A DNA stretch of 5,234 bases from Thermoleophilia bacterium. GTDB taxonomy: Bacteria > Actinomycetota > Thermoleophilia > RBG-16-64-13. This document shows positions 1 through 5,234 of this stretch, in pieces. The stretch lies in assembly GCA_016929985.1 (NCBI GenBank), contig JAFGIH010000045.1, forward strand, positions 1 through 5,234, written 5' to 3'. The notes beneath the pieces are model-generated. The model did not search any database. It was not told where the DNA came from and worked only from the letters and a program-made list of their open reading frames with translations. How positions within the stretch are numbered: position 1 is the first letter of the stretch; each line of letters starts with the position of its first letter. A program made the translations under genes and the position numbers.

Positions 1-852
1 GAGAACGCCAACAGCCCCATGAGCGGTTACCGGGCCGGCATGCTCTACCGCGACTGCATCCCCGCCGGTATGACCTCGCGTGAGGGCGGCTGCCGTTATC
101 CGGAAGGCAAGGCCTCTTGGGTGGGCGACAAGGGCATCTGCGACGTGGGCGACTACCTGACCGGCATCGAGTACCTGGTCTTCGATAAGAAGATGGTCAC
201 CATGGACGAGCTTCTCAAAGCCATGGACGCCAACTGGGAAGGTCATGAGGACATCCGCCAGATGTGCCTCAAGGCTCCCAAGTACGGCAACGATGACGAC
301 TACGCCGACAAGTGGTATGTCCGTGCCTCGCACGACACCCAGCAGATCCTGCTGAGCCGTCCTGACCCCATCACCGGTGCGAAGCCCATGCTGTTCAAGG
401 GCGCAGCCGCCGGTCACGTGACTCAGGGCAAGGCAATCGGCGCCATGCCGAACGGCCGCTTTGCGGGCACTCCGATCTACGACGGCGGCACCTCAGCCAT
501 GGCCGGTGGCGACGTCAACGGCCCGACCGCTCTCATCCTGTCGGCCACCAAGTACCCGACTCCGTACGAGTGCGCCGGTGTGGCCCACAACATGAAGTTC
601 TCCAAGGCCGTGCTCAACTCACCCGAGAAGCTGAGCAAGGTGGGTTCGCTCATCAAGACCTACATGAAGCGTGGTGGCTGGCATATCCAGTTCAACATCC
701 ACAGCGCCGAGGAGCTCATGGCGGCCCGCAAGGAGCCGGCGGCCCACAAAGACCTGCTGGTCAGGGTGGGTGGCTACAGCGCCTACTTCGTCGATCTGCC
801 GCCTGAACTGCAGGACGAGATCGTCGAGCGGACCATGCATGAGGTTGGCTGA
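1..852 (+). CDS. Glycyl radical enzyme, C-terminal part (5' end outside window)
   Basis: The frame is open from base 1, giving 283 residues of the C-terminal part of a PFL-like glycyl radical enzyme. Full-length members usually have about 780-860 residues, so roughly two thirds is missing upstream, including the loop with the catalytic cysteine. Family landmarks seen are the stretch around KAPKYGNDDDYAD (about residues 88-100), a segment reading GKAIGAMPNGRFAGTPIYDG (about 143-162), NGPTA (about 173-177), GGWHIQFN, and the radical loop RVGGYSAYF at about 763-789, followed by QDEIVERT. The radical-bearing glycine should be the second of the GG pair, codon 772-774, by analogy with RVxGY/F loops. 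The activase gene follows at once, as is usual for this family. These enzymes abstract a substrate hydrogen through a cysteine thiyl radical. The subclass (dehydratase, C-N or C-S lyase, decarboxylase, or fumarate-adding synthase) cannot be decided from this part. Family membership is very secure; substrate is unknown. Confidence 0.95.
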   Translation, partial: ENANSPMSGYRAGMLYRDCIPAGMTSREGGCRYPEGKASWVGDKGICDVGDYLTGIEYLVFDKKMVTMDELLKAMDANWEGHEDIRQMCLKAPKYGNDDDYADKWYVRASHDTQQILLSRPDPITGAKPMLFKGAAAGHVTQGKAIGAMPNGRFAGTPIYDGGTSAMAGGDVNGPTALILSATKYPTPYECAGVAHNMKFSKAVLNSPEKLSKVGSLIKTYMKRGGWHIQFNIHSAEELMAARKEPAAHKDLLVRVGGYSAYFVDLPPELQDEIVERTMHEVG

Positions 853-866
853 TCGATAAGCCTTCT

Positions 867-902
867 TACCTGGGGCGCCGCCGTCGGCGGCGCCCCAGGG
901 TA
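867..902 (+). terminator. Strong GC hairpin between GRE and activase (attenuator or weak terminator)
   Basis: A perfect inverted repeat spans 869-899: a 14-bp stem almost entirely of G and C with a GTC loop at 883-885. It extends by two more T-A/A-T pairs (867-868 with 901-902) if one G at 900 is bulged. It starts 14 bases after the GRE stop codon. The bases after it (TACTGTCTTT) contain only a short, interrupted T run, so full intrinsic termination is doubtful. It could act as a partial terminator or as an mRNA-stabilising 3' end that keeps GRE expression well above that of its activase. That fits the catalytic amounts of activase needed, but the functional reading is inference. Confidence 0.5.
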
Positions 903-917
903 CTGTCTTTCGCAATT

Positions 918-923
918 GAGGAG
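918..923 (+). promoter_or_regulatory. Ribosome binding site of the activase gene
   Basis: GAGGAG lies 6 bases before the GTG at 930 and 9 bases before a second in-frame GTG at 933. It supports a GTG start here, with 930 or 933 about equally acceptable. The N-terminal strand leading to the radical-SAM loop begins within ten residues, so no longer start is needed. Confidence 0.7.
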
Positions 924-929
924 TGAGCG

Positions 930-1844
930 GTGGTGACAAGCGCAACTGGGACCGTGTTCAACATCCAGAGGTACAGCATCGACGACGGTCCGGGCATCCG
1001 GACTACTGTCTTTTTCAAGGGCTGTCCGCTGAGTTGCGTGTGGTGCTCCAACCCGGAGTCACAGAACCTCGCGCCTGAGCTCATGCATCGGGACTCTCTC
1101 TGCAAGCGTTGCTATCGTTGCGTGGCGGCCTGTCCGGTGGGGGCCATCACCGTGGGTCCCAACGGCATCGAGATCGACCGCGACGTCTGCACTGTGTGCG
1201 GTGATTGCGTGGAGGTCTGCCCGCATGAGGCTCTGCGCATCACCGGCAAAGATATGACGGTCGACGAGGTCATGAATGTCATCCGGCGCGACGCCGATTT
1301 CTATGCCGATTCGGGCGGGGGCATCACCCTGTCCGGCGGTGAGGTGCTGTTGCAGCCGGAGTTCGCCCTGGCCATCTTCAAGGCCAGCAAAGAGGCGGGG
1401 TTCCACACCACCCTCGACACCGCGGGCCAGGGAGATACCGAGGCGCTGAAGCGACTGCTGCCCTATGTCGACCTGGTCTACTTCGATATCAAGCACATCG
1501 ATCCCAAGATCCATCGGGCGCAGGCCGGACGCACCAACGAGACCATTCTGCGCAACTTCCACGAAGTGGCCGCCAGCGGCGTGCCGTTCGTGGTGCGTGT
1601 GCCTGTCGTGCCCGGTTTCAACGACACGAGCGATGCCATCTCCGACATCGCCGACTTGGTCGCAACGGCTTCTCCCGGCGCGACCGTGCATCTGCTCCCG
1701 TACCACCGTTACGGACAGCAGAAATATGACATGTTGGGGTTGGACTATGAGCTGGGGGCGGCCGAGACGCCTTCCCCGGAGTTCATGAAGGCCGCCCGCA
1801 ATATCGTGGAAGGCCGTGGTCTCAAGTGTGAGGTCGCGGTCTAG
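930..1844 (+). CDS. Glycyl-radical enzyme activating enzyme (radical SAM, with two extra 4Fe-4S clusters)
   Basis: The product is a 304-residue radical-SAM activase that would install the glycyl radical on the upstream enzyme by reductive cleavage of S-adenosylmethionine. The CxxxCxxC cluster motif is C32-PLS-C36-VW-C39, preceded by the DDGPGIRT segment typical of these activases. It is followed by a ferredoxin-like insertion with two CxxCxxCxxxC motifs (C58, C61, C64, C68 and C87, C90, C93, C97). The GGE SAM-binding motif is at 136-138. Later family segments include YFDIKH, VRVPVVPGFND and LLPYHRYGQQKYDMLG. The inserted two-cluster domain is found in activases of GREs other than pyruvate formate-lyase (for example glycerol dehydratase, choline lyase and benzylsuccinate synthase types), and argues against a housekeeping PflA, which is shorter. 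The start is GTG at 930, served by GAGGAG. A strong hairpin upstream may lower its expression relative to the GRE. Nothing looks broken. Confidence 0.95.
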   Translation: MVTSATGTVFNIQRYSIDDGPGIRTTVFFKGCPLSCVWCSNPESQNLAPELMHRDSLCKRCYRCVAACPVGAITVGPNGIEIDRDVCTVCGDCVEVCPHEALRITGKDMTVDEVMNVIRRDADFYADSGGGITLSGGEVLLQPEFALAIFKASKEAGFHTTLDTAGQGDTEALKRLLPYVDLVYFDIKHIDPKIHRAQAGRTNETILRNFHEVAASGVPFVVRVPVVPGFNDTSDAISDIADLVATASPGATVHLLPYHRYGQQKYDMLGLDYELGAAETPSPEFMKAARNIVEGRGLKCEVAV

Positions 1845-1855
1845 TACTGACTTCT

Positions 1856-1865
1856 GATTCGAATC
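1856..1865. repeat. Short perfect palindrome GATTCGAATC
   Basis: A ten-base perfect palindrome sits in the 36-base gap between the activase stop and the next start, just before the GAGAG-rich stretch that probably serves as a weak ribosome binding site. It is too short to form a stable hairpin. It could be a small operator half-site pair or chance; no function is claimed. Confidence 0.3.
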
Positions 1866-1880
1866 GAGAGCGAGAGTGCC

Positions 1881-2312
1881 ATGGAGCAGCTAGGCTGTGT
1901 CATCACCGGGACCGTCGGCGTCGACGCCCACGTCATCGGGACCAAGATCGTCTCACGGGCTCTGCGCGAGGCCGGGTTCAAGGTGGTGGAGTTGGGCGCC
2001 CAGACACCCCCTGAGGAGTTCATCATGGCCGCCCAGGAGACGGCGGCGGACGCCATGATGATCAGCTCGCTGTACGGCATGGCCGAGATGGACCTCGAGG
2101 GCTTCCGCGACAAGTGCACGGAGGCCGGCCTCGAGGACGTGCTCCTCTACGTGGGCGGCATCCTCGGGGTCTCCCGACGCAACTTCTCCGACGACGAGGC
2201 CAAGTTCAAGAAGATGGGCTTCGACCGCGTCTACCCGCCTGAAAGCGACGTGCGGACGGCCATCGACGATTTGAAGGCCGACCTGGACAAAAAGCGGGCA
2301 GGCCGCCCGTAG
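1881..2312 (+). CDS. glmS: B12-binding small subunit, glutamate mutase sigma (GlmS/MutS)-like
   Basis: The product is a 143-residue stand-alone cobalamin-binding domain, close to the roughly 137 residues of the sigma subunit of methylaspartate (glutamate) mutase. The base-off B12 signature is complete: D15-x-H17-x-x-G20, with H17 the expected cobalt ligand, then S62-x-L64, then G92-G93. Segments such as SSLYG (62-66), EAGL (81-84), YVGG (90-93) and KKMGFDRVYPP near the C-terminus are characteristic of the glutamate mutase sigma subunit as I recall it, rather than of methylmalonyl-CoA mutase or corrinoid methyltransferases. Such subunits carry adenosylcobalamin and combine with a separate TIM-barrel subunit (GlmE) to shift a carbon fragment by a radical route. 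The GlmL homologue follows 38 bases later, as in clostridial glm operons. No GlmE is present in the window, so the real substrate may not be glutamate. The start is ATG 1881 with a weak GAGAG site 4 bases upstream; the first motif begins at residue 15, as in the family. Confidence 0.88.
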   Translation: MEQLGCVITGTVGVDAHVIGTKIVSRALREAGFKVVELGAQTPPEEFIMAAQETAADAMMISSLYGMAEMDLEGFRDKCTEAGLEDVLLYVGGILGVSRRNFSDDEAKFKKMGFDRVYPPESDVRTAIDDLKADLDKKRAGRP

Positions 2313-2319
2313 CGGCCTG
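2299..2319 (+). repeat. Inverted repeat over the glmS-like stop codon
   Basis: CAGGCCGC (2299-2306) and GCGGCCTG (2312-2319) form a perfect 8-bp stem with a 5-base loop that contains most of the stop codon. There is no T run behind it, so it is not a typical intrinsic terminator. It could affect ribosome movement or mRNA processing between this gene and the next, whose own ribosome binding site is weak. Confidence 0.4.
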
Positions 2320-2350
2320 GTCTGGGGCCGAAACGGGCAGGTCGACCGTC

Positions 2351-3721
2351 GTGAGAAGTACACGGAGCTTTGTAGATTTCGGGAGTACCTTCACTAAGCT
2401 CGTAGCCTTCGATCTCGAGGGTGAGGAGCTCCTCGCCCGGGTCCAAGTGCCTTCCACCGTCGGCCGCGACGTCACCATCGGTCTCGATCAGGCGTTCTCG
2501 CTGCTCGCCGAGACTGTGCCCATCGGCGAAGAGGAGCGGCGGCAGACCGTGGCCTGCAGCAGCGCCGCCGGCGGCCTGCGGGTGGTCTGCGTGGGCCTCG
2601 TCCCTGAATACACCACCGAAGCCGGCCGTAGAGCCGCGCTTGGAGCGGGGGCCAAGATCGTCGGCTCGTACTCGTTCGAGCTTGCTGAGGCCGAACTCCG
2701 CGAGATCCAGGACATCGCCCCCGACATAGTGCTGCTCACCGGGGGCACCGACGGTGGCAACAAGAAGGTCATCGCTCACAACGCGGCCATGCTGGCCCGT
2801 TCGGGCCCCGGCGTGACGAACATCATAGTCGCCGGCAACAAGTCGGCCTACGACGAGGTGGCGGCGCTGCTCGACGGCTCGGGCAAGAATGCCATCTATA
2901 CCAGCAACGTCATGCCCGAGATCGGCGTGCTCGAGGTCGAGGCCGCCAACCACAAGATCAGAGACCTCTTCATCGCCCGCATCACCGAGGCCAAGGGCAT
3001 CGGCCGGGCGCGCAGCATGATCGCCGACGTCATAATGCCCACGCCGGCGGCCGTCCTCGAGGCGGCGAAGCTCCTCGCCGACGGCGCTGGGGGGCAACCC
3101 GGTATCGGTGAGCTCCTCCTGGTCGACGTGGGGGGAGCCACCACCGACGTGTACTCCGTGGCCACGGGCGCGCCTACTTCCGGCACGGTGCGTTTCGTCG
3201 GCCTTCCTGAGCCCTACGCCAAGCGTACCGTGGAGGGCGACCTCGGTCTCTTCCACAATCTTGACACGCTCAAGGCCATCGCGGAGTCCGGGGGCGTGCC
3301 GGAGGGCTTCGAAGAGGCCGTTGCCGCCATGTGTGCGAAGAACAGCGTGCCTAGCGACGAGGAGCAGACGGCCTGCCACCTGCTGCTTTCAAAGGTGGCC
3401 GTGCGCTCCGCGGTCGACCGCCACGTGGGATCGCTGAAGAACATCGTGACCCCGAACGGCGAGGTGACCGTGCAGCGGGGCAAGGACCTCTCTCAGCTGC
3501 GCTGGGTGGTGGGCGCGGGCGGGCCAGTGTCGTTCTCGACCGACCCGGTTGAGGTGCTGCGGGGGGCCGTGTTCGAGAACGATCTCCCCATGCTGCTCAA
3601 GCCGAAGGAGCCGGAGTTCCTTCTCGACAGGCAGTACGTGCTCTTCGCCCTTGGCCTGCTCGCCCAGAGCGAGCCGGCCAAGGCGCTGCGGCTGATGCAG
3701 AAATATGTGGTGCATCTATGA
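2351..3721 (+). CDS. glmL: GlmL/MutL-like ASKHA ATPase, B12-mutase-associated
   Basis: The product is a 456-residue protein of the GlmL (MutL, glutamate mutase-associated) family, unrelated to the mismatch-repair protein of that name. It has the actin/Hsp70-like nucleotide fold: a phosphate-1 loop DFGSTFTK at residues 9-16, the family segment LLTGGTDGGN at about 128-137, a phosphate-2 loop DVGGATTD at 259-266, and a late glycine-rich motif VGAGGP at 387-392. Proteins of this family are thought to reactivate or load the B12 subunit of adenosylcobalamin mutases, exchanging damaged cofactor at the cost of ATP. The glmS-like gene directly upstream is its natural partner. The start is GTG at 2351. 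No strong ribosome binding site is seen (only AGG around 2339-2341), but the phosphate-1 loop begins at residue 9, so the start must be close to here. The length and motif order look intact. Confidence 0.9.
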   Translation: MRSTRSFVDFGSTFTKLVAFDLEGEELLARVQVPSTVGRDVTIGLDQAFSLLAETVPIGEEERRQTVACSSAAGGLRVVCVGLVPEYTTEAGRRAALGAGAKIVGSYSFELAEAELREIQDIAPDIVLLTGGTDGGNKKVIAHNAAMLARSGPGVTNIIVAGNKSAYDEVAALLDGSGKNAIYTSNVMPEIGVLEVEAANHKIRDLFIARITEAKGIGRARSMIADVIMPTPAAVLEAAKLLADGAGGQPGIGELLLVDVGGATTDVYSVATGAPTSGTVRFVGLPEPYAKRTVEGDLGLFHNLDTLKAIAESGGVPEGFEEAVAAMCAKNSVPSDEEQTACHLLLSKVAVRSAVDRHVGSLKNIVTPNGEVTVQRGKDLSQLRWVVGAGGPVSFSTDPVEVLRGAVFENDLPMLLKPKEPEFLLDRQYVLFALGLLAQSEPAKALRLMQKYVVHL

Positions 3722-3727
3722 GCGACG

Positions 3728-3735
3728 AAGGGAGA
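3728..3735 (+). promoter_or_regulatory. Ribosome binding site favouring the internal start of the first cupin
   Basis: AAGGGAGA contains a GGAG core ending 10 bases before ATG 3745. The alternative ATG at 3718, which overlaps the upstream stop as ATGA, has no comparable purine-rich site before it. This decides for 3745, although coupled re-initiation at 3718 remains possible. Confidence 0.55.
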
Positions 3736-3744
3736 TCGAAAGAC

Positions 3745-4212
3745 ATGGAGTCCGTCAGCGAGTGCCATTTCGTCGAAAGGCCGGCCTATGAGGTGGTGCC
3801 TGCCTTCGAGGTGCTGGGCCGCATACCGGCGATGACCCTCATGAGCAACAACCTCGTGCCAGGGGCGAACATGTACGTGGAAGCGGGCTGGATCGTCGGC
3901 ATGCCCGACCCCAATCCCTGCGTCGGCGAACACGTGCACGACTACGACGAGATCGTCATGCACATCGGCAGCGACCCCGGCGACCAGGAAGACTTGGGGG
4001 CCGAGATCGAGTTCGTGGTCGACGGGAAGCCTCTGCTCATCAACAAGACCTCTTCGGTCTACGTGTCGAAAGGCGTCAAGCATGGGCCTCTCACGTGGAA
4101 GCGCTTCACGAAGCCTCACATAGAGATGACGGTCATGATCGGGGCCGGCAGTCTCGCCGAGGCCGACCCCGGCGGCCACCAGGACAAGATGGAGCAGGGA
4201 GGCGAGAGTTGA
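3745..4212 (+). CDS. Small cupin-domain protein, first of a tandem pair
   Basis: The product is a single-domain cupin of 155 residues with no signal peptide. Cupin motif 1 is clear: G61-E-H63-V-H65-DYD-E69, giving the HxHx3E set that usually binds a divalent metal. Motif 2 is recognisable at SKGVKH (108-113), with H113 the expected fourth ligand, but serine replaces the usual first proline (PxGxxH). Residues 62-121 align without gaps to 76-135 of the next gene product with 24 of 60 identities, so the two arose by duplication. The role is unknown. Cupins this small include isomerases, decarboxylases, dioxygenases and simple ligand binders; in an anaerobic radical operon an oxygen-independent role is more plausible, but that is inference. 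The start at 3745 is chosen from its ribosome binding site; a start at 3718 would overlap the glmL-like stop codon and add nine residues. Its stop overlaps the next start. Confidence 0.85.
   Translation: MESVSECHFVERPAYEVVPAFEVLGRIPAMTLMSNNLVPGANMYVEAGWIVGMPDPNPCVGEHVHDYDEIVMHIGSDPGDQEDLGAEIEFVVDGKPLLINKTSSVYVSKGVKHGPLTWKRFTKPHIEMTVMIGAGSLAEADPGGHQDKMEQGGES
4196..4202 (+). promoter_or_regulatory. Ribosome binding site for the TTG-started second cupin
   Basis: AGGGAGG lies 6 bases before TTG 4209, inside the end of the preceding gene. It is the best Shine-Dalgarno match in the window and fixes the start of the second cupin. An in-frame ATG at 4095 would create a long arginine- and glycine-rich leader that is only the shadow of the upstream gene. 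Confidence 0.8.
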
Positions 4213-4673
4213 GCGAGTCGAAGTACGGCAAGTACATCCTCACCGAGGACCGTATGCCCCCGGAGCCGGAGGCCATGGTGAAGTCCATGGACGACCAGGC
4301 CAAGGAGGGCAAGATCCTCGACCGTACCATGCTGCTCGGCATCATGAACTCCATCGTGCCGGGCTGCTCGCTCTTCGTGGGCTGCGAGATATTGTGGGGC
4401 CTGCCGGGAGGCAAGCCGGTGGACATCGAGATACCTCACGCCCATGAGTTCGACGAGGTGATCGGCTTCGGGGGCACCAACCGCAACTACCCACGGGAAC
4501 TGGGGGGCGAGATCGAGTTTCACATCGGGGGAGAGACGCATGCCATCACGAAGACCTGCCTGATCTTCGTGCCCAAGGGGGTGGAGCACTGCCCCGTCAC
4601 CTTCAAGCGCATCGACACGCCCATCTTCATGTTCGAGGCGGCCAACGACCCCAACTATGTGAAACTGTTCTAG
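4209..4673 (+). CDS. Small cupin-domain protein, second of a tandem pair
   Basis: The product is a single-domain cupin of 154 residues beginning at TTG, which overlaps the previous stop codon as TTGA. Both cupin motifs are canonical: H77-A-H79-EFD-E83 for motif 1 and P122-K-G-V-E-H127 for motif 2, so a complete 3-His/1-Glu metal site is predicted. It shares blocks such as LGxEIEF, the I-K-T triplet and PxTxKR with the upstream cupin, and is a clear paralogue. Its N-terminus (about 35 residues, charged, rich in E, K and M) differs from that of its partner. The two may form a heteromer or act on related intermediates; this is inference. The protein is probably cytoplasmic, since neither a signal peptide nor a membrane segment is present. 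The exact reaction is not recognisable. Confidence 0.87.
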   Translation: MSESKYGKYILTEDRMPPEPEAMVKSMDDQAKEGKILDRTMLLGIMNSIVPGCSLFVGCEILWGLPGGKPVDIEIPHAHEFDEVIGFGGTNRNYPRELGGEIEFHIGGETHAITKTCLIFVPKGVEHCPVTFKRIDTPIFMFEAANDPNYVKLF

Positions 4674-4701
4674 ACACATTGCGCAGCCGGAGGGTACACA
4701 G

Positions 4702-5163
4702 ATGAAGATGACCTACGATGAAATGCTCGCCTGGATCGACGTGTATTTCGACGACTTCAACCGCTACGGCCAGAACCCAGAAACCATCCAGCGCATGGAT
4801 GAGTACTTCGCCAAGGATTTCGTTTTCAATCCGTTCGTGGCCCATGTGGGCAAGGTGGCCGGGCGGGACAATTGGTATAAGGTGCTCTTGTCGCATCCCT
4901 CTGGAATCGAGAAGCTGACGCCGGAGGATCTGGTCATCGACGAGCGCCGCCAGGCCTTCGTCGCACAGATCAAGGCGGAACTCTGGGACCGCGACACCAA
5001 CCAGCTGCTGCTTACCAAGCGCTACCTGGCCCGCTACCCGCTCATCGAGGAAGAGGGCAAGATGAAGATCGAGCGCTTGGACTTTTTCTGGGAGGTCCTG
5101 CCGGCCGGAGCGCTGGAGATCGACGACGTGTTCGAGCGCGATTGGAAGAAGGGACCGGCATGA
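4702..5163 (+). CDS. Small NTF2/SnoaL-like protein, first of a tandem pair
   Basis: The product is 153 residues with no signal peptide or membrane segment. The pattern suggests the NTF2-like cone fold: an N-terminal amphipathic helix (about 4-20), a second helix with IQRMDEYFAKDFVFNPF (29-45), a G-R-D-N-W segment (54-58), and then several long alternating strands ending in ERLDFFWEVLP. SnoaL-like members bind small hydrophobic or acidic ligands, and some act as isomerases, cyclases or dehydratases. No catalytic residue can be named here, although H48, D56 and H65 are candidates for pocket positions. GGAGGG at 4689-4694 lies 7 bases before ATG 4702. The stop overlaps the start of a paralogue. 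The gene is 28 bases behind the second cupin, so it belongs to the same operon. The fold assignment is from pattern only and moderately sure; the function is unknown. Confidence 0.75.
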   Translation: MKMTYDEMLAWIDVYFDDFNRYGQNPETIQRMDEYFAKDFVFNPFVAHVGKVAGRDNWYKVLLSHPSGIEKLTPEDLVIDERRQAFVAQIKAELWDRDTNQLLLTKRYLARYPLIEEEGKMKIERLDFFWEVLPAGALEIDDVFERDWKKGPA

Positions 5164-5234
5164 AGCCTACCTACCAAGAGATCGTGCAGTGGATGAAGGA
5201 CTACTTCGCCGAATACAACGCCAGCGCCCAGGAC
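5160..5234 (+). CDS. Second NTF2/SnoaL-like protein, N-terminus only (runs off window)
   Basis: The ATG overlaps the preceding stop as ATGA, with AAGGGA (5149-5154) 5 bases before it. The frame stays open for 25 codons to the window edge. Its N-terminus matches that of the upstream gene at 10 of 25 positions without gaps (M1, K2, T4, Y5, E7, W11, Y15, F16, N20, Q24), so it is a tandem paralogue, probably with the same fold. It is too short for any functional call. Confidence 0.75.
   Translation, partial: MKPTYQEIVQWMKDYFAEYNASAQD

Follow-up and report, generated by a model that had tools for sequence, protein, structure and literature searches.

A glycyl radical enzyme of an unnamed clade and a glutamate-mutase-type B12 enzyme form a conserved gene pair in three bacterial phyla

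The stretch of DNA analyzed here (the window) comprises 5,234 nucleotides of a Thermoleophilia bacterium (assembly GCA_016929985.1, contig JAFGIH010000045.1, positions 1 to 5,234). It carries the end of a gene for a glycyl radical enzyme (GRE), followed by genes for the GRE activase, for the B12-binding subunit (GlmS) of a glutamate-mutase-type enzyme, for the mutase accessory ATPase GlmL, for two small cupins (CupA and CupB) and for two NTF2/SnoaL-like proteins (Table 1). All window genes lie on the + strand; the gaps from GRE to activase to GlmS to GlmL are 77, 36 and 38 bases, and GlmL and CupA overlap by 4 bases. The initial annotation of this DNA had called GRE, activase, GlmS and GlmL in this order, on one strand and with short gaps, which is borne out by profiles and motifs; the cupins it had named as a “double cupin” are present, but as two separate genes. 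By motif reading, the activase has a CX3CX2C motif at 1023–1046 plus two extra ferredoxin-type cysteine clusters, and GlmS has a DxHxxG motif at 1923–1940. Besides the two models in Table 1, GlmS is also barely above the cut-off of the broader TIGR00640 (62 vs. 57). In alignment, the GRE fragment begins at residue 573 of an 856-aa orthologue; its catalytic-cysteine loop lies outside the window and was inferred from the orthologue at locus L001, which is 95% identical to the window GRE. No catalytic mutase subunit (GlmE) is found within the window. The window is the center of a catabolic gene cluster, whose host is probably an uncultured, anaerobic, Thermoleophilia-like actinomycete, judged by its closest relatives.

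Table 1. Features of the 5,234-nucleotide window, with positions, strand and supporting evidence
Feature	Position	Strand	Evidence
GRE, C-terminal part, 283 aa	1..852	+	PF02901 (PFL-like) 100 bits; PF01228 (Gly_radical) 95 bits
Glycyl-radical loop RVGGY	763..777	+	Sequence motif; presumed radical Gly codon 772–774
GC-rich hairpin, GRE/activase gap	870..898	+	z −4.1 in window
Radical-SAM (S-adenosylmethionine) GRE-activating enzyme	930..1844	+	TIGR02494 355 bits vs. cut-off 174
GlmS-type B12-binding mutase subunit	1881..2312	+	NF002612 187 vs. 110; TIGR01501 161 vs. 136
GlmL-type mutase accessory ATPase	2351..3721	+	NF040745 519 bits vs. cut-off 475; PF13941 503 bits
Small cupin CupA	3718..4212	+	Open reading frame; homologues in relatives
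Small cupin CupB, TTG start	4209..4673	+	187 homologues; Cupin_2
NTF2/SnoaL-like protein 1	4702..5163	+	SnoaL_2
NTF2/SnoaL-like protein 2, start only, cut by window end	5160..5234	+	Open reading frame; second NTF2 gene at equivalent spot in L001, L002, L006, L008, L009

The same arrangement recurs in relatives. An alignment of window CupB with 21 homologues was used to gather 17 loci from 16 genomes (handles beginning with L and G, respectively). In the five Actinomycetota loci (L001, L002, L006, L008 and L009), GRE, activase and GlmS follow one another as in the window and are succeeded by CupB and two NTF2-like genes; GlmL stands between GlmS and the cupins in four of the five and was not found in L008, and CupA was also found in three (L001, L002 and L009). 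The Acidobacteria locus L003 (genome G003) has GRE, activase, a 637-aa GlmE-GlmS fusion and CupB, and the Spirochaetes genome G007 has GRE, activase, a GlmE-GlmS fusion and GlmL. Among 249 genomes from the class of G002, eight hold a GRE of this clade (E ≤ 1e-150), five of them known beforehand. The three new ones show GRE followed by GlmS-GlmL-CupB-NTF2-NTF2 without an activase between (G324), GRE-activase-GlmS-GlmL (G361) and GRE-activase-GlmS at a contig end (G367). Altogether, GlmS or the GlmE-GlmS fusion lies no more than two genes downstream of GRE in 10/10 genomes with a GRE of this clade and at 10 of the 11 GRE copies; GlmL adjoins GlmS or the fusion in seven of these 10 genomes, the contig ending there in G367. 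The order of GRE and mutase genes is not due to chance, as it recurs in all 10 genomes examined, and the GRE of this unnamed clade and the GlmE-GlmS adenosylcobalamin-dependent mutase constitute a conserved genetic unit across phyla. Conservation of the gene order in relatives had been singled out by the initial annotation as a point on which its proposal could fail; the order is conserved in Actinomycetota, Acidobacteria and Spirochaetes. Further scans matched 1/344 genomes of a Spirochaetota sample (the genome already known) and, with the CupB alignment, 3/296 genomes of an Actinomycetota sample, where the matches reflected expansion of the cupin family and no additional clusters. The GRE alignment found no relative among viral contigs (22 stretches), and every one of 137 records from a plasmid collection was below 60% identity.

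The catalytic subunit missing from the window is encoded elsewhere in most of these genomes. GlmE (PF06368) occurs in 14 of the 16 genomes with a CupB relative and was found in 9/10 genomes of the GRE clade, the G361 copy being in two pieces on two contigs. In Actinomycetota, GlmE lies upstream of GRE on the same strand, at about 15 kb in G002, 16 kb in G006 and 12 kb in G009 (where GRE is split over two contigs), and on another contig in G001, near the contig end there, and in G008. The fusions of G003 and G007 come directly after GRE and activase. One candidate role for GlmS, as corrinoid partner of a protein resembling uroporphyrinogen decarboxylase (URO-D), was ruled out by this presence of GlmE and by its fusion to GlmS in Acidobacteria and Spirochaetes. 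Within the class sample, GlmE of this type (at least 72% identity) was found in 7/8 GRE-positive vs. 0/241 GRE-negative genomes, three of the latter holding only distant GlmEs (32–37% identity). The GRE and GlmE scans each drew 249 genomes with the same handles listed and were taken as one set; these are related genomes that include the five already known, and are not independent trials.

Linkage appears to extend to other bacteria. The GRE search gave 705 homologues above threshold, and the 120 listed (58–91% identity to the L002 query) include proteins attributed to Thermoleophilia, Bacillota, Peptococcaceae, Oscillospiraceae, Gracilibacteraceae, Family XIII and Synergistaceae. The GlmE search gave 2116, and 51 of the 120 listed are of GlmE-GlmS fusion size. 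The two sets of 120 share 12 exact longest-contig sizes above 7 kb, whereas 2000 trials of a jitter control gave 0.10 on average and never more than 2. Of the 12, one (233,990 bases) is assigned to Bacillota in both sets and one (36,599 bases) to Gracilibacteraceae, with the locus tags LBS10_10985 (GRE) and LBS10_10975 (GlmE); beyond the fetched genomes, linkage is judged from shared contig sizes and locus tags rather than from neighborhoods. The GlmE and CupB lists share three contig sizes and the GRE and CupB lists none, and CupB is therefore taken as a looser partner, although the CupB list consists mostly of short contigs.

The residues of GlmE bear on the class of substrate. In PMC10947579, R66, R100 and R149 of glutamate mutase form an arginine claw that holds the two carboxylates of the substrate, Glu171 contacts the glycyl amine and Tyr177 contacts the acrylate part, and the enzyme is proposed to move a glycyl unit via fragmentation to acrylate and a glycyl radical. 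GlmE of G002 was aligned to the Clostridium cochlearium enzyme, and residues were counted over the 120 listed homologues. The claw is kept (R66 in 120/120, R100 in 119/120, R149 in 120/120), whereas Glu171 is replaced by Pro in 120/120 and Tyr177 by Trp in 118/120. Among further positions that we take to belong to the active site, K326 is kept in 116/120 and E330 in 120/120, and Phe216 is replaced by His. GlmE of this type thus keeps the three carboxylate-binding arginines, and its amine-binding glutamate is lost. In GlmEs of genomes without this GRE, positions 171 and 177 read Ala/Ser, Glu/Thr, Asn/Gly, Gly/His and Glu/Gly, with one partly unreadable. In G001, G002, G006 and G008, GlmEs of a second set lack two of the three arginines; G007 also has a second GlmE, in which R66 is gone, position 177 is Asp and position 171 is Pro.

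The system shares its subunits, the B12 motif and the arginine claw with the C. cochlearium type of glutamate mutase (GlmES with GlmL), and a rival reading takes it as an ordinary glutamate (methylaspartate) fermentation mutase beside an unrelated GRE, in favor of which window GlmS, window GlmL and the GlmE of G002 all reach curated methylaspartate-mutase cut-offs. It differs from that type, however, in the residues at 171, 177 and 216, in its many GlmE-GlmS fusions and in its linkage to GRE in 10/10 genomes; the L003 fusion falls below the GlmE cut-off (344 vs. 390), and methylaspartate ammonia-lyase (PF07476) is above cut-off in 0/10 genomes of the GRE clade. In 14 control genomes, PF07476 was above cut-off in two and gave any match in 11. 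The ordinary mutase is accordingly a highly improbable explanation, and ordinary glutamate fermentation was rejected on the Glu171 to Pro change together with the lack of an ammonia-lyase above cut-off. Because the claw is kept, Glu171 has become Pro and no ammonia-lyase exceeds the cut-off, the mutase probably acts on a non-amino dicarboxylate. The initial annotation had proposed a free dicarboxylate or an amino acid rather than a coenzyme A (CoA) ester; the retained claw agrees with the free, CoA-free dicarboxylate, whereas the amino acid is disfavored by the same replacement and the same absence.

Two further arrangements of GlmE genes were noted. At L060 (G008:C10, 2942–10527), a GlmE2-GlmS2-GlmL2 set lies between a CupB-like gene and an activase, after which comes a GRE truncated where the contig ends. 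In GlmE2, R66 is replaced by Gln, R149 by Asn and E171 by Asn, and the locus is a possible parallel GRE-mutase pairing for another substrate. Four Chloroflexi loci, L014, L052 (G012:C41), L053 (G010:C8) and L055 (G015:C54), carry SDR1-GlmE-GlmS, the first being a short-chain dehydrogenase/reductase (SDR), without a GRE orthologue; three of these loci also have GlmL, G010 and G015 have CaiB-like genes, and instead of Pro their GlmEs show Glu, Asn or an unreadable residue at position 171.

The GRE likewise departs from characterized enzymes. It resembles the PFL2/glycerol-dehydratase-like GREs (HypD, CutC, IslA, HpsG and glycerol dehydratase) in fold family, in the glycine loop and in having a radical-SAM activase with a ferredoxin domain, but its listed homologues form a group of their own. 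The initial annotation had asked whether the full enzyme falls within a characterized subclass; two full-length orthologues reach no NCBIfam equivalog cut-off, the best equivalog score being 481 vs. 1000 (L002) and the PFL2-3 subfamily model giving 492 vs. 678 (L006). The catalytic cysteine is present in 120/120 listed homologues, in a loop that reads G-C-L-(G/A) throughout; position Cys+2 is Gly in 114, Ala in six and Glu in none. Glu occupies this position in the six solved GREs that were aligned, namely 8iof, HypD, isethionate lyase, glycerol dehydratase, the 6lon enzyme and choline lyase (the last aligned against another GRE). The Cys-x-Glu dyad is thus missing from this GRE clade. Apart from short fragments, no other GRE in these genomes exceeds 39% identity, and the Cys loop varies in those GREs as well. 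Residues invariant and specific to the group in an alignment of 22 sequences include R384, R387 and R434 (L002 query numbering), which could bind carboxylates.

When the full GRE is compared with the Protein Data Bank (PDB), most of the better matches are eliminases, though the similarity is low, and aldehyde-oxidizing enzymes are encoded nearby, with two aldehyde:ferredoxin oxidoreductases (AORs) in L002 and two aldehyde dehydrogenases in the Acidobacteria locus. The GRE might be an eliminase (a dehydratase or a C-N, C-S or C-O lyase), or a decarboxylase like those of 4-hydroxyphenylacetate (HPAD) and indoleacetate (IAD), that supplies the AORs with an aldehyde or acid, with the mutase several steps away in the same pathway. 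A Glu1 at Cys+2 accompanies the cysteine in both HPAD and IAD, as described in PMC6181972, and the GRE clade lacks it in 120/120, as it lacks the Glu of the six solved enzymes; the two orthologues also miss every equivalog cut-off. We consider this alternative unlikely. In X-succinate synthases, an Arg 15 residues after the cysteine binds fumarate, as given in PMC12358834 (BSS 493/508, MASS 477/492). The activase scores below the BssD-type cut-off (TIGR04003, 228 vs. 496), and the small accessory subunits (PF08201) were found in 0/10 genomes, yet no control matched either. Identity as an X-succinate synthase or a known eliminase was rejected on the missed equivalog cut-offs, the missing Glu at Cys+2 and the missing Arg near Cys+15.

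Taken together, we favor an explanation, to which we assign a probability of roughly 0.6, in which the conserved GRE-GlmES unit serves one pathway and the mutase substrate is a free non-amino dicarboxylate; it is rather likely that both enzymes belong to one CoA-free dicarboxylate pathway. We strongly infer that GRE and mutase serve a single pathway, where their substrates are probably successive intermediates, and likewise that the mutase substrate is R-CH(COO-)-CH2-CH2-COO- or its isomer R-CH(COO-)-CH(CH3)-COO-. Since the amine contact is lost and the claw is kept, the substrate would be a dicarboxylate that carries another radical-stabilizing group R.

Several observations weigh against this explanation. 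The Actinomycetota clusters hold about 35 genes, so neighbors could belong to several pathways, and in G324 a second GRE-activase copy has no adjoining mutase and GlmE lies on a different contig from GRE. Both facts would suit an arrangement with two distinct pathways, one using the GRE and the other the mutase, encoded on a common catabolic island under one regulator. Against such a division stand the small linked sets of Acidobacteria, Spirochaetes and G361 (GRE, activase, GlmE-GlmS or GlmS, and GlmL and/or CupB) and the co-occurrence of 7/8 vs. 0/241 genomes, and we regard it as improbable. Among the other points unfavorable to the single pathway, the G003 and G008 clusters yielded no GlmL, no GlmE was found in G367 despite its GRE-activase-GlmS, and the GlmE of G006 (L042/L043, G006:C40, 98021–99483) is interrupted by a stop codon or an assembly gap; completeness of the genomes is not reported, so absences are weak evidence. 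Pelotomaculum thermopropionicum SI has a GlmE of 64% identity and no size-matching entry among the 120 GRE matches listed, and the mutase may thus also work without this GRE. The lack of any contig size common to the GRE and CupB lists is a further unfavorable point. For the mutase, weak ammonia-lyase matches below the cut-off exist in G006 and G361 (2/10), and the GlmE of G002 narrowly passes the methylaspartate-mutase equivalog cut-off (395.7 vs. 390.1), because of which pipelines will give it that name. For the GRE, the reaction cannot be read from any characterized close relative. Its best PDB match, 8iof (384 bits), was deposited as “benzylsuccinate synthase alpha subunit” yet carries Cys-x-Glu; scores for the synthases TutD and MasD are much lower (263 and 275 bits). 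Arg is found at Cys+10 to Cys+21 in 0/119 homologues, a spacing taken from the X-succinate synthase paper, so that an insertion could hide an equivalent. The 120th homologue (P0167) was missed by the motif search, and its printed loop is also without Arg to Cys+20.

Within the favored single pathway, the substrate and the chemistry of the GRE might be as follows. Like glutamate mutase, the mutase would plausibly work by fragmentation and recombination, interconverting a straight 2-R-glutarate and a branched 2-R-3-methylsuccinate. In the branched form, R would sit beta to the second carboxylate, as radical addition or beta-scission requires. Through hydrogen abstraction with beta-scission or addition, the GRE thiyl radical could cleave or form the C-C bond to R; X-succinate synthases do likewise with fumarate, and the acid here would be of the mesaconate type. 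Such hydrogen-atom chemistry would suit a GRE that lacks a proton-handling Glu. Other enzymes encoded in the cluster, namely SDR, AOR, old yellow enzyme (OYE), NTF2, cupin and MmgE/PrpD, would generate these acids or remove them. Either GRE or mutase may act first, the MmgE/PrpD neighbors being compatible with a methyl-branched acid on either side. In this specific form, a CoA-free radical pathway with a new adenosylcobalamin mutase (2-R-glutarate/2-R-3-methylsuccinate) and a new type of GRE that makes or breaks the C-C bond joining R to a mesaconate-type acid is possible but doubtful; its users would include Actinomycetota, Acidobacteria and Spirochaetes and, as shared contig sizes and locus tags suggest, some Bacillota.

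Anaerobic C-C bond chemistry is known mainly as fumarate addition. In hydrocarbon degradation, an X-succinate synthase is followed by a rearrangement of the dicarboxylate of the methylmalonyl-CoA-mutase type. The initial annotation had drawn this comparison, and as an analogy the pairing of a GRE with a B12 carbon-skeleton mutase acting on a dicarboxylate stands, whereas the likeness does not reach the GRE itself, which has no Arg near the X-succinate-synthase position (0/119). The present system further differs in its GlmES-type mutase, in that CoA is not implied and in an activase below the BssD cut-off. In the open-licence PubMed Central literature, where precedents from subscription journals could be missed, no pairing of a GRE with a glutamate or methylaspartate mutase was found, nor any paper that combines fumarate addition with glutamate mutase. 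The GRE-mutase pair points to undescribed handling of organic acids by a conserved pair of radical enzymes for which no assigned reaction was found in the literature, in several uncultured and probably oxygen-avoiding groups. It leads to two predictions, that the B12 mutase acts on dicarboxylates lacking an amino group and that the GRE functions with no Cys-Glu dyad, and it suggests that the automatic name “methylaspartate mutase” is wrong for at least the 120 listed proteins in which the amine-binding residue is lost. If the proposal holds, two new reactions would be added, one for the mutase and one for the GRE, and anaerobic C-C bond chemistry would extend to free branched dicarboxylates.

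The wider cluster was compared in a gene matrix of 19 genomes, with 3–104 kb fetched per genome. In G002 it spans most of a 44.6 kb contig. Its upstream part encodes MmgE/PrpD, hydantoinase A and B, an SDR and an AOR (called from their resemblance to SDR1 and AOR1), GlmE, an ABC transporter of the branched-chain type (three genes profile-tested, two assigned by eye) and an aldo-keto reductase. These are followed by a GCV_T protein nearest to the LigM/DesA O-demethylases but far below cut-off, a NuoF-like protein, NuoG-type iron-sulfur domains joined to a pyridine-nucleotide oxidoreductase, an FAD_binding_2 flavoprotein and an SDR, and then by the genes of the window. Downstream lie an OYE, an AOR, two SDRs, an AOR, a weak URO-D match below cut-off and a molybdopterin oxidoreductase. 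MmgE/PrpD is found near GlmE by Pfam in G001, G002 and G005. Where there is no GRE orthologue, Pfam places a class III CoA-transferase and an enoyl-CoA hydratase close to GlmES in G005 and G015; comparable genes of G004, G010 and G013 were assigned by similarity or by eye.

Operons for bile-acid dehydroxylation of the bai type combine an OYE, a SnoaL-like dehydratase and an SDR. The G002 cluster resembles them in the clustering of OYE, NTF2/SnoaL-like and SDR genes, and its OYE matches the BaiCD and mycofactocin OYE models below cut-off. It differs in the presence of AORs, GRE and mutase, and the likeness is one of gene types.

The two cupins are distinct. CupA is 68–75% identical to genes in L001, L002, L009 and L010 and about 30–38% identical to CupB-type genes, and it has no Pfam match of its own at E 0.001. 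In the 22-sequence alignment of CupB, the columns H77, H79, E83 and H127 are invariant. The Cupin_2 profile matches 22/22 members at E up to 1, the window member being below the Pfam cut-off. SnoaL_2 matches 9/14 aligned members of NTF2-like protein 1 (best E 3.2e-06; window protein E 0.08). CupB belongs to a cupin family that is expanded in some genomes, with 11 matches in G002 and seven in G202 scattered across contigs. A distant CupB relative (31%) at L017, from an uncultured Gordonibacter, lies in a genome that gave no GlmE or GRE match to these queries.

A hairpin in the gap between GRE and activase is present in 6/7 loci (the window, L001, L002, L006, L008 and L003) with differing sequence; none was found in L009. 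Its z-scores range from −2.4 to −4.6, except in L003 (−0.6), where it is no stronger than its shuffles. As read from these predicted folds, the hairpin may lower expression of the activase relative to GRE and so uncouple their levels.

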